DNA of 38,212 nt. Source: an uncultured Alphaproteobacteria bacterium. Lineage in GTDB: Bacteria; Pseudomonadota; Alphaproteobacteria; Rs-D84. Location: assembly GCA_944389515.1 (NCBI GenBank), contig CALXMQ010000009.1, forward strand, positions 1-38,212, given 5' to 3'. The notes under the pieces were generated by a model. That model searched no databases, had not been told where the DNA came from, and saw only the letters and a program-made list of their open reading frames with translations. A program made the position numbers and the translations under genes. Within the stretch, counting starts at the first letter, position 1; each line of letters starts with the position of its first letter. Of this stretch, positions 4,947 through 33,618 are shown piece after piece.

Positions 4947-4970
4947 AAACGGGGCAACGCCCCGTTTTTA
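4945..4970. terminator. Bidirectional terminator between glyS and the Cys-rich gene
   Basis: The hairpin CGGGGC-AAC-GCCCCG (4950-4964) is flanked by A and T runs, so it works in both directions. It also overlaps the stop codon of the leftward gene. A near-identical inverted copy sits at 6068-6091. Confidence 0.85.
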
Positions 4971-5990
4971 ATACATGCAATTTTGGTCCACAATTTCAAA
5001 TGTTCCTTCATCCCCAGTTAGTTCCTTTCCATAGCCAATATAGCACCCAGATAAAGATGTATTATTTGACATACGTCTTATTTCACCAGCCATCCCATAC
5101 GTGCCATATTTATTCTGGTATAATGGACATCTGTAACAACTGGTTGGTCCATTAGGTGTCACAACATTTCCGTTATAATACCCATTATTTGGGTCGCATG
5201 AATATACTGGTTTACATTTACCGTCTTCACATTTCTCGTTATATTTTAGTCCCGGTTTGCCAGATACATCTGTTCCACCGACAACCCACCCCGGACAATC
5301 CCTGTTTGAATTGCATCCTGACTCGCATTGTGTCACAGTAAACGTACCTGTTGCACTGGTACACCCAGGAATTTTTACAGTCGCCGTCTTTTCCAAATAT
5401 CCAGATTGACAACCACCCGTACAATCTTCTACGGGTCCCAGTAAACCATCCAAATCCGTACCAATATATGTACGGGTGCCCCTGGCACAACCATTTTGGT
5501 TGGTAAATGTTTCTTCCACATAACCAAGCATTTCTAAACATTCTACTTCCTCAGGATTTGTTTCTTTTACACATTCCCAATAATACAAATCGCCACAATT
5601 TTGACCAGTAAGCGGGGTTGTAACTCTTCGTCGTACATAACCCCACGTACATGCGGAACATTCACGGTATGCAATGGTTGGTTTATTTCGTGCCGTACCA
5701 AAACAACGGCGAACTACTTCTATATCATATCCATTATTACCATTATCTATCAATGCGCAATGTTCTGGTTCCAGTGGTCCAATCGTTCCAACAGATGTCG
5801 TACATGAATCACCCACCAAGCCTTCCACACACATCAGCGCATTTGCATTATTTGTCATACATAAATACAACGTCGTCGTCAACAACCCACCGATTTTTTT
5901 CGGCAAAAAAGGGGGAATAAAAAATGCAGAAAATGGGGATTTTTTCAAAAATAAAAACGCCGATTTTAATCGGTGGTTTATTTTCGGCAT
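4968..5990 (-). CDS. Cys-rich secreted/surface protein (paralogue of the gene at 32782)
   Basis: A 340-residue protein with about two dozen cysteines spread through the mature region, which suggests a disulfide-rich extracellular or periplasmic protein. The N-terminus is basic and then hydrophobic, ending TNNANA before the first mature cysteine, consistent with a long signal peptide. The C-terminal pattern (a CPLY..YGTYG block, then CYIG, then GTFEI, then a last Cys-x-Tyr) matches the protein at 32782-33618, so they form a family. The ATG at 5990 has no Shine-Dalgarno sequence but lies about 13 nt from the -10 box of a promoter (6003-6032), predicting a nearly leaderless mRNA. I do not know its function. 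Confidence 0.75.
   Translation of the reverse strand: MPKINHRLKSAFLFLKKSPFSAFFIPPFLPKKIGGLLTTTLYLCMTNNANALMCVEGLVGDSCTTSVGTIGPLEPEHCALIDNGNNGYDIEVVRRCFGTARNKPTIAYRECSACTWGYVRRRVTTPLTGQNCGDLYYWECVKETNPEEVECLEMLGYVEETFTNQNGCARGTRTYIGTDLDGLLGPVEDCTGGCQSGYLEKTATVKIPGCTSATGTFTVTQCESGCNSNRDCPGWVVGGTDVSGKPGLKYNEKCEDGKCKPVYSCDPNNGYYNGNVVTPNGPTSCYRCPLYQNKYGTYGMAGEIRRMSNNTSLSGCYIGYGKELTGDEGTFEIVDQNCMY
5959..5974 (-). terminator. Terminator-like hairpin inside the 5' end of the Cys-rich gene
   Basis: On the minus strand CCGAT/ATCGG (5960-5973) is followed by a T-rich run while still within the first dozen codons. It could attenuate transcription. The companion module near 32650 also has a hairpin plus U-run directly after its start codon. 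Confidence 0.4.
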
Positions 5991-6044
5991 TTATTTATGT
6001 TTATTTTACCCCAAAATCCGCCCACACGTCAATATCATTTTGAC
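5975..6044 (-). repeat. Promoter/start-codon module, copy 1
   Basis: This ~70-bp block is nearly identical to 32667-32737. On the minus strand it carries TTGACG (6027-6032), an 18-nt spacer and TAAAAT (6003-6008), followed by ATGCCGAAAATAAACC. The ATG is the first codon of the Cys-rich gene at 4968-5990. Confidence 0.8.
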
Positions 6045-26770: not shown

Positions 26771-28246
26771 TCAGAAAGAATATTTCAAACCAATATGCAA
26801 TCCAAATGATTGCCAATTCGCATGATCCAACTGGTCACTGATGTATTCTGTACTGGCCGGAACAGTTTCCAAAATAGGCAAACCATTTTCATCTAAGATA
26901 TAATACCCATTTTCATCAACCAACCATTGGGTATATTCAGCCAAGTATAATTCACCGCCAATGGCACCAACATGGAAATAATTTGTATCAACCTTTATCG
27001 CCAACTGCATACGATCGGAAATACGATAATTATATTCCATTTCTGCGGCATACGAGTATGCACCATTGCTGCCTTCGTCAATAAAGCTGGGGTTTTGTTG
27101 CCAATCAGTACGGTTTGGCCATGTACCTTCGGATGAATATTTTGGCAATCCAACCTGGAAATAAAAACGCAATTTATCAGACAATGTCATTTGCTTTTCA
27201 ATTTCCAAACCAATATAAAACCCAGACCACGTTGTGTTGTAAATATGCGTTGTCCCTTCGACCACCACAGGTCCATCACCACCAATAATTACGCATTCAC
27301 CGGAATCAACCCCCCACGGGATATATCCCATATCAGGATTATAATCGCCCGTTACCAGTGTGGTGCCCAAATCCATAATTGCCCCAGCATTGGTTGTTTG
27401 AACCAATTTAATATCTTCGGGGGACATACACACCTGGTACCAATCATCAGGCGCCGCAATATTGATTGGCACAGAATAATAATTGCCATCCACGTCACCA
27501 TATACATAATCACCATTACTGGTCATCAAAGGCAAGAATATGCCCGGATTCGGATAAAAATGGTCGGACATTTCTAGGTTATGATTAAATATTTCATATC
27601 CAAACGATGGTGATAATTTCCATCCACCGATATCCCATATATGATGTGCACCAATGCCAATTTTGAAATGATTTGTACGCCCAGTTTGATCACCCACAGA
27701 AATAGTAAATATACCATACCCAGGGTCAGACCAATCATATGGTTCCAAGTCATAATCCATTGACATCCCACCATGCGACATGAAACCCATGCTGTATTCC
27801 GCAGTGGCGAACATATCAAAACTACGTACACTGAAATTGTGGCGCAAACCAAACCCAATTTCATCAAAAACCATATCATCCCATTCCAGGACAGAATTTA
27901 CCCCAGTTTTGAATTCAAAATCTGCAAACCGGCGCGTATACGTTGCATAAACAGTCGTTCTGTCATCTGTCGGCATTGCGATACCATTTGCGGTCATCGT
28001 ACCAACCGTGGTTGGCATTGTTGGGCGTGGAACCTGGTACGAAGTGGTTTGACTGCCCACAACTTGCTTATTCCCAGATTGCCCAACGTATTTGGTATAT
28101 CCCTGGTTTGCATATTGACCATATGCCGCCTGGTTCGCATTTAATGAATCATTTGATTGATAATATGAAGGCACCCCTTCGTTCGACGCCATCGCCGCCA
28201 AAGGCACAAAAATTCCGCATAAAAACGATAACCTTCCTGTATTCAT
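26771..28246 (-). CDS. Large outer-membrane beta-barrel protein
   Basis: A 491-residue protein with a signal peptide ending near AAMA, a polar Gln/Asn/Tyr-rich N-terminal linker (about residues 25-95) and then a beta-barrel-like region with alternating strands such as TTVYATYTRRFADFEFKTG, EMEYNYRISDRMQLAIKV and FGLHIGLKYSF at the end. The terminal Phe fits BAM targeting. It shares its general plan (linker, barrel, aromatic end) with the barrels at 7862 and 9101, but no close homology is evident. The ribosome binding site is weak. Confidence 0.8.
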   Translation of the reverse strand: MNTGRLSFLCGIFVPLAAMASNEGVPSYYQSNDSLNANQAAYGQYANQGYTKYVGQSGNKQVVGSQTTSYQVPRPTMPTTVGTMTANGIAMPTDDRTTVYATYTRRFADFEFKTGVNSVLEWDDMVFDEIGFGLRHNFSVRSFDMFATAEYSMGFMSHGGMSMDYDLEPYDWSDPGYGIFTISVGDQTGRTNHFKIGIGAHHIWDIGGWKLSPSFGYEIFNHNLEMSDHFYPNPGIFLPLMTSNGDYVYGDVDGNYYSVPINIAAPDDWYQVCMSPEDIKLVQTTNAGAIMDLGTTLVTGDYNPDMGYIPWGVDSGECVIIGGDGPVVVEGTTHIYNTTWSGFYIGLEIEKQMTLSDKLRFYFQVGLPKYSSEGTWPNRTDWQQNPSFIDEGSNGAYSYAAEMEYNYRISDRMQLAIKVDTNYFHVGAIGGELYLAEYTQWLVDENGYYILDENGLPILETVPASTEYISDQLDHANWQSFGLHIGLKYSF

Positions 28247-32628: not shown

Positions 32629-32682
32629 TTATTCTGTGCAAATAAAAAAATGCCACAATAAACGTTGGTTTATTTTCGGCAT
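32629..32682 (-). pseudogene. Orphan start fragment of the Cys-rich family (17 codons)
   Basis: ATG 32682 opens MPKINQRLLWHFFICTE and then stops. The first codons match MPKINHRL of the Cys-rich gene at 4968-5990, and the promoter upstream is the same module. A hairpin (32651-32681) plus U-run lies inside, so a roughly 45-nt RNA would result. It may be a gene remnant or a deliberate short RNA. Confidence 0.45.
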
Positions 32683-32737
32683 TTATTTGAAACTATTTTA
32701 CCCTAAAAAACGCCCCCACGTCAATATCATTTTTGAC
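32667..32737 (-). repeat. Promoter/start-codon module, copy 2
   Basis: A ~71-bp near-copy of 5975-6044. On the minus strand it carries TTGACG (32719-32724), an 18-nt spacer and TAAAAT (32695-32700), followed by the same start. It faces away from the Cys-rich gene at 32782. Confidence 0.8.
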
Positions 32738-32781
32738 GTTTTTTACCCAACGTTTGTTTTCGGCACAATATGGGGGAAAAT

Positions 32782-33618
32782 ATGCGTAAAATAATACCTG
32801 TAATAATCGGAACAACGTTTACGATGCCGACATTTGCCATATCTGTTGCGCCTGTTTCTGGGGCCAGTGTAACAGACGCTGGGCAATATTCGGGATATAC
32901 ATGTGTCAAAGTGACTGGCAGCGGTCTGCCCGTAAATGATACATCTTTGCCAACAACGGATACATCGAACTGTTCTGCGACGGCTGCAATCGCATATCAG
33001 TCAAATTTTTCTGGTGGGGGCGTGGGGTCCACCGTATATCAAAAAAGGTACTGTACAGCATGTAAATCGGGGTATTCGCTGGAAACCAAAAGTGCGGTTT
33101 CAACACTTGCGCGCGACTGTAAAGTTACGTGGCAAGAATGCGAAGTAATATCCACTTTGATATGTGATGGTTTAGAATGCGAAGGCATCGCATCGTGGCA
33201 AAATTCTTCAACCACTGGAAATGAAACGCGTTGTAACGCAGATACCAATAAATGCGAATATCGGTGTCGCAGTGGATATTATGATGCTGGCGGCATGACA
33301 ATAATTGGCGGCGCAAATAATTGTAAAGCATGTCCAACAAATGCCACCTGTACCGGCGGCAACGCACTGCCATGTTGTAATGTCGGTTATTACATGTATG
33401 ATAACAACTATAACCCATCCATTAGTGGCGCACAGGCTGATTATGAATGCTTGCGTTGTCCGGCTTTATACGGCGTATATGGAACAACGCTTCCTATTTG
33501 TCCTCTCGTGGCACCAACACCATCGGATATAACACGGTGCTTTATACCACCAAATACAGATATCGATGTTACTGAGGGCACATTTCAATTCACAATGAAT
33601 TGTAATTATTCTGAATAA
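32782..33618 (+). CDS. Cys-rich secreted/surface protein (paralogue of 4968-5990)
   Basis: A 278-residue protein with a signal peptide (MRKIIPVIIGTTFTMPTFA) and about 21 cysteines in CxxC, CC and short-spaced patterns, implying a disulfide-rich exported protein. The C-terminal part (CPALYGVYGTT, then CFIPPN, GTFQF and a final Cys-Asn-Tyr) parallels the protein at 4968-5990. GGGGGA immediately before ATG 32782 sets the start. An ATG at 32770 overlaps that signal. The function is unknown; a surface-exposed role is inferred from export and the disulfide-rich composition. Confidence 0.78.
   Translation: MRKIIPVIIGTTFTMPTFAISVAPVSGASVTDAGQYSGYTCVKVTGSGLPVNDTSLPTTDTSNCSATAAIAYQSNFSGGGVGSTVYQKRYCTACKSGYSLETKSAVSTLARDCKVTWQECEVISTLICDGLECEGIASWQNSSTTGNETRCNADTNKCEYRCRSGYYDAGGMTIIGGANNCKACPTNATCTGGNALPCCNVGYYMYDNNYNPSISGAQADYECLRCPALYGVYGTTLPICPLVAPTPSDITRCFIPPNTDIDVTEGTFQFTMNCNYSE

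Follow-up and report, generated by a model that had tools for sequence, protein, structure and literature searches.

A putative 84-bp invertible promoter and recurrent fixed-pitch palindromic sites in a reduced-genome alphaproteobacterium

Results

The DNA analyzed here (the window) is a stretch of 38,212 nt, contig CALXMQ010000009.1, from an uncultured alphaproteobacterium with a 947-kb genome (labeled G000). The host very probably belongs to Candidatus Enterousia, whose members have reduced genomes and are placed in GTDB order Rs-D84 (PMC12306168). Between guaC and a gene for a Cys-rich exported protein, the window contains the second copy (copy 2) of a promoter module. Judged by sequence criteria, copy 2 is probably an inverton, that is, a promoter that would be flipped by an invertase of the Mpi family and that was assembled with the Cys-rich gene OFF; we assign this reading a probability of about 0.84.

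An earlier note on this DNA had described a second copy of the module with a promoter, a hairpin, a T run, and a 17-codon frame, the promoter facing away from a Cys-rich gene. All of these elements were found. Positions 32631-32733 are 77% identical to copy 1 (5939-6041) across 103 nt, and six more copies of comparable extent (79-87% identity) are present in the same genome. Folded as RNA, the hairpin reaches -13.9 kcal/mol; shuffled sequences average -4.64 (z -4.19), and none of 200 folded as well. On the other side of the promoter, position 32782 is the start of the plus-strand Cys-rich gene. The earlier note had not seen that the hairpin is one of two palindromes placed 84 bp apart around the promoter, and that these belong to a family found throughout the genome. 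The promoter of copy 2 lies 9 bp and 13 bp from the flanking sites, a geometry identical at other loci. The palindrome on the guaC side is followed by seven T, and the one on the gene side by CAATATGGGGGA, not T.

Table 1 Features of copy 2 and copy 1 in the window.
Feature	Coordinates	Strand	Description
Copy 2, 17-codon frame	32629..32682	minus	MPKINQRLLWHFFICTE, then stop; read-through of the palindrome; unlikely to be a gene
Copy 2, T run	32644..32650	minus	A run on plus; after the palindrome, OFF side; terminator-like
Copy 2, site on guaC side	32650..32681		ATGCCACAATAAAC-GTTG-GTTTATTTTCGGCA; core TT 32665-32666; the hairpin of the earlier note
Copy 2, predicted invertible segment	32666..32749		84 bp core to core; would hold the promoter and both inner half-sites
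Copy 2, promoter	32695..32724	minus	TTGACG-18-TAAAAT; directed away from the Cys-rich gene (OFF)
Copy 2, site on gene side	32734..32765		TGACGTTTTTTACC-CAAC-GTTTGTTTTCGGCA; core AA 32749-32750, inverted match to TT
Copy 2, Cys-rich exported-protein gene	32782..33618	plus	MRKIIPVIIGTTFTMPTFA...; Shine-Dalgarno GGGGGA 32772-32777; predicted switched gene
Copy 1, Cys-rich exported-protein gene	4968..5990	minus	Open frame from site B
Copy 1, site C	5874..5905		84 bp from site B; center GGTG on gene strand
Copy 1, start-codon cassette	5906..5957	plus	GGGGGAATAAAAAATG; opposite to its gene (OFF)
Copy 1, site B	5958..5989		Center CACC on gene strand (GGTG on plus)
Copy 1, promoter	6003..6032	minus	TTGACG-18-TAAAAT; toward its gene

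Palindromic sites recur at a fixed pitch with matched cores

As DNA, the copy-2 hairpin is a 32-bp palindrome with the consensus TGCCGAAAATAAAC-nnnn-GTTTATTTTCGGCA across 12 genomes; the full 32-bp form is visible in copies from relatives. Site pairs recur genome-wide and in at least 10 Enterousia relatives, the genome-wide counts resting on pattern searches. A scan of the host genome with the single motif TGCCGAAAATAAAC, which is free of spacing bias, returned 12 exact occurrences and 15 with one mismatch, most of them pairing at 84-85 bp. When gaps of 70-86 were allowed, real pairs were found at 84 and 85 only, and the reversed control gave 0 matches. Across loci, the spacing was 84 (42 times), 85 (15 times), or 168 (seven times), a statistic that is unbiased for the host genome only. 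The usual pitch of 84-85 bp corresponds to 8 helical turns; at times it is 94-96 bp, or 9 turns (two P-type loci at 95-96 bp and L018 at about 94). Promoter placement is near-invariant, the -35 element starting 8-11 bp inside one site and the -10 element ending 11-15 bp before the other; in the two 95/96-bp loci measured, the extra bases sit between the -10 element and the downstream site, giving a distance of 24 bp.

The central dinucleotides were reverse-complementary in 44 of the 47 pairs at 84/85 bp, compared to a mean of 16.9 and a maximum of 28 with shuffled partners. Outside the AC/GT class, 8 of 10 pairs were also core-matched (AA/TT, TA/TA, GA/TC, GC/GC, and CC/GG). Such an inverted match across differing cores is expected if recombination requires an identical 2-bp crossover. 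Two of the three exceptions (L016 and L095) look like alignment-register effects, and the third is the double promoter L094 (G126:C10:31054-31252), in which two back-to-back promoters share a perfect middle palindrome and the right-hand pair has direct, not inverted, cores (CACC/CACC). Copy 2 itself has a promoter between inverted recombination-type sites with a matched crossover (AA/TT).

A variant palindrome, TGCCTAAT..AAAC-nnnn-..ATTAGGCA, accompanies the same promoter module at five loci of G025 (L317, L321, L326, L331, and L333).

Related loci are assembled in opposite orientations

Orientations were called from consensus promoters and Shine-Dalgarno patterns, each assembly giving one orientation. 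Homologs of the copy-2 gene lie behind the same promoter module, with the promoter toward the gene in some and away from it in others, and both orientations were found at homologous loci, between paralogs as well as between species. Within one genome (G078), the paralogous loci L096 (OFF) and L097 (ON) share a promoter segment that points one way in the first and the other way in the second: as assembled, 110 of 212 positions were identical (score -2), and after an in-silico flip 139 of 211 (score 57). At these loci, the inner half-sites were exchanged about the palindrome center and the outer half-sites were unchanged. For the start-codon cassettes described below, flipping raised the identity between G126 loci L093 and L095 from 140 to 155 of 210, and that between the G057 and G000 pilin loci from 128/212 to 146/213. 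In G122, a single promoter (L099) is located between two divergent genes with mirrored starts.

The promoter segments at G060:C1:204396-204486 and G000:C1:155304-155394 appear identical across the two species in the stretch shown, the G000 segment being directed away from its gene; recent transfer or strong constraint is possible.

A candidate recombinase of the Mpi family

The host genome encodes its own Mpi-family serine invertase outside the segments (G000:C1:60547-61188), which matched the NCBIfam model NF009949 ('master DNA invertase Mpi family') with 307.9 bits against a cut-off of 272 and carries the serine-recombinase N-terminal motif GYIRVST. A small serine recombinase orthologous to it was found in 12 of the 12 site-bearing genomes checked. 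At a threshold of at least 300 bits, orthologs were present in 48 of the 156 genomes of the genus; each of the 11 genomes with real site pairs has one (hypergeometric 1e-6, with relatedness left uncorrected). The 2-bp core fits the serine recombinase class. A tyrosine recombinase was rejected as the enzyme, as only two are common to all 12 genomes, and we read these as XerC/XerD-like from their universality. A search of viral contigs did not find the module; relatives of the invertase in these contigs reached an identity of no more than 73%. The host genome also encodes another small serine recombinase (G000:C3:84771-85397, L146), which is about 53% identical to the Mpi ortholog and missing in some site-bearing genomes.

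In the proposed mechanism, the Mpi-family invertase would recombine the two inverted sites at the central dinucleotide and so flip the promoter. As assembled, a strong sigma-70-type promoter faces guaC and would give a short transcript ending at the palindrome and T run. With only this short transcript made, the Cys-rich gene at 32782 would be OFF, and the 17-codon frame and the ~45-nt RNA would be by-products. In the flipped state, the promoter would read through the other palindrome to GGGGGA and the ATG at 32782, switching the gene ON; flipping in silico places the -10 element 61 bp upstream of this ATG. The Mpi ortholog presumably acts on these sites and the locus presumably still inverts. 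The encoded protein, predicted to be a surface or secreted factor, matched no Pfam or NCBIfam family, and a scan of genome contigs found no relatives.

Start-codon cassettes and copy 1

A second type of segment carries a Shine-Dalgarno sequence and start codon in place of a promoter, and copy 1 has one. In the ON configuration, the start codon and the exported-protein frame are in register, the Shine-Dalgarno-ATG frame continuing beyond the far site; among 21 credible loci, 18 were assembled OFF and three ON (a fourth ON call, L074, was left out of the count because it lies on the wrong strand for its gene). The promoter of copy 1 is apparently fixed because its upstream (-35 side) site has decayed and is now degenerate, so that it is probably locked toward the gene. 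Flipping the copy-1 cassette in silico gave MQKMGIFSKIKTPILIGGLLTTTLYLCMTNNANA-, in frame with the gene, whose true start is probably in the flipped cassette and not at the annotated-looking MPKINHRL....

A VirB2/TrbC-like pilin gene (a weak PF04956 match, under the cut-off) has its start-codon cassette ON in G000 (G000:C2:106358-106389, L019) and OFF in G057 (L070). In some leader segments of G000 (L010, L012, L009, and L015), the start codon is gone and a strong terminator-like hairpin (ATCCCAGTTTTCTGGGATTTTTTT) is present instead, with a folding energy of -37.1 kcal/mol for the L010 leader. Where the leader lacks a start codon, the gene carries its own Shine-Dalgarno sequence downstream.

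These two kinds of segment suggest a broader reading, to which we give even odds: a single Mpi-family invertase would run genome-wide 'two-key' phase variation, in which an exported Cys-rich protein (as well as the VirB2/TrbC-like protein) is made only when both promoter and start codon are correctly turned. The minimal promoter and start-codon cassettes (the latter with ~52 bp between sites) would flip independently, with their pitch locked at 8 or 9 turns and, in many cases, an arrangement in series with a shared middle site.

The copy-2 locus in related species

The variation at the locus that the earlier note had proposed to look for was observed between species. In G025 and G126, neither the Cys-rich gene nor the switch is present between guaC and the PLD-family gene, and in G057 a lone site lies there, indicating that the unit is accessory. 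Elsewhere in the window, the protein encoded at 26771-28246 on the minus strand matched the Protochlamydia outer membrane protein (Pom, PF17251) with 39.9 bits against a cut-off of 22.4, in an alphaproteobacterium.

Discussion

Several observations weigh against the interpretation of copy 2 as an inverton. A segment of 84 bp is very short for DNA inversion. Opposite orientations were seen between loci and species, every assembly being single-state, and none within one population. The link between Mpi and the sites is a correlation (co-occurrence) only, and many genomes with an Mpi ortholog lack this site consensus, some of them, such as G025, using the variant TGCCTAAT.... The loci of relatives were mostly harvested with a fixed-gap pattern, which limits what their spacing can show. 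The double promoter L094, with its shared middle site, is no simple two-state switch, and the assembly of most start-codon cassettes in the OFF state may reflect a strong bias or locked sites.

Copy 2 also fits the description of looped operators, as its promoter is flanked by palindromic sites that are in helical phase. A repressor dimer or tetramer could bind both palindromes on one helical face and loop the promoter, the differences in orientation then being due to evolutionary gene rearrangement; the 8-turn pitch, the fixed promoter geometry, the overlap of one site with the expected transcription start region, and the two promoters of L094 with their shared middle site would all suit such an arrangement. 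However, looping leaves unexplained the inverted core-dinucleotide identity, the exchange of half-sites about the core, and those cassettes whose start codon is usable only once flipped, and we consider it improbable. A better, though still unlikely, alternative is a frozen former switch, a variant of the inverton interpretation that overlaps with it in probability: the anatomy would be the same, copy 2 would no longer flip, and the gene would be silent or read from another promoter. Several sister copies without the upstream site and the weak gene-side inner arm of copy 2 (TGACGTTTTTTACC) point in this direction, but this weak arm does not vary among copies, whether these face toward or away from their genes, and copy 2 has retained matching core dinucleotides (AA/TT).

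The earlier note had offered three explanations of copy 2, of which a promoter cassette awaiting a coding region came closest: it is a promoter cassette, but the gene already lies behind it and a flip would connect the two. The proposal of a small RNA or attenuator, in which transcription from the promoter would yield a functional RNA of ~45 nt that terminates at the hairpin, draws on the promoter, the stable hairpin, and the T run. A dedicated RNA could be made here but is not needed to account for the hairpin, a repeated DNA site that occurs in many contexts, including positions upstream of promoters, which there do not transcribe it; related species lack the unit at this place, and an Rfam search returned no match in the copy-2 region, where neither a known family nor a conserved RNA was found. 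We regard this explanation as very improbable. A version with compensatory hairpins was abandoned when this palindrome also turned up on the upstream side of promoters. Equally little probability attaches to a gene remnant, according to which the MPKINxRL start would be the leftover of a coding gene lost by recombination. The MPKIN frame is open and runs into a gene in three copies of the host genome, but in 15 of the 18 comparable loci (related start-codon loci in the OFF state) it stops within 31 codons, while the Shine-Dalgarno-ATG frame of opposite orientation is open; at copy 2, the frame of the supposedly kept start is the palindrome arm read through. A conserved leader peptide (MPKINHRL...) was rejected on account of stops in other species, and a mobile element with terminal repeats because loci differ in their interiors yet retain the pitch and the matched cores.

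As an inverton, copy 2 would belong to a known kind of system, Mpi-type phase variation, in which the minimal fixed-pitch switches, some flipping start codons, would be unusual. To our knowledge, the strict 8/9-turn pitch, the 84-bp core-to-core size, the start-codon cassettes, and the series of promoter and start cassettes sharing a site are new; no description of such a system was found in the literature (open papers), which is not proof of absence. If flipping occurs, a gut bacterium with a genome below 1 Mb keeps a large combinatorial switch system for exported proteins, which would indicate strong selection on surface variation even as the genome is being reduced. Both the 84-bp core-to-core length and the strictness of the helical phase would then bear on the lower size limit of inversion by serine invertases, and the start-codon cassettes would constitute a distinct route to phase-variable translation. 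Gene callers would misplace starts (MPKIN...) at such loci.

The closest parallel is Bacteroides fragilis, in which Mpi controls 13 invertible promoter regions (PMC4747536). There, one Mpi-family serine invertase acts in trans on many dispersed promoters of surface-related genes with ON and OFF states, as the ortholog would in the present genome. Here, in contrast, the host is a reduced-genome alphaproteobacterium, long palindromes with a fixed pitch of 84-85 bp make up the sites, the genes concerned are not capsule operons but code for small Cys-rich exported proteins and one VirB2/TrbC-like protein, and some cassettes carry a start codon in place of a promoter. Hin of the Salmonella flagellar switch is likewise a serine invertase with a 2-bp core, and its segment is about 1 kb. 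Loci with divergent genes, such as L099, resemble it in placing one promoter between two alternatives, whereas the invertase gene found here is outside the segment, which measures only 84 bp core to core. At cwpV of C. difficile, 195 bp are inverted between 21-bp repeats with no part of an open reading frame inside (PMC2784873). Inversion of the cassettes downstream of a promoter would similarly control expression through a promoterless leader, and some leaders here also hold terminator-like hairpins, but the segment carries a Shine-Dalgarno sequence and start codon. Vpma-type systems of Mycoplasma rely on a tyrosine recombinase (Xer1-type) that shifts a single promoter from gene to gene, whereas every locus described here possesses a mini-segment of its own, with a serine invertase as candidate enzyme; the likeness to the Mycoplasma families (e.g., Vpma of M. 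agalactiae, PMC2268961) is that paralogous exported proteins would be under the control of site-specific inversion.
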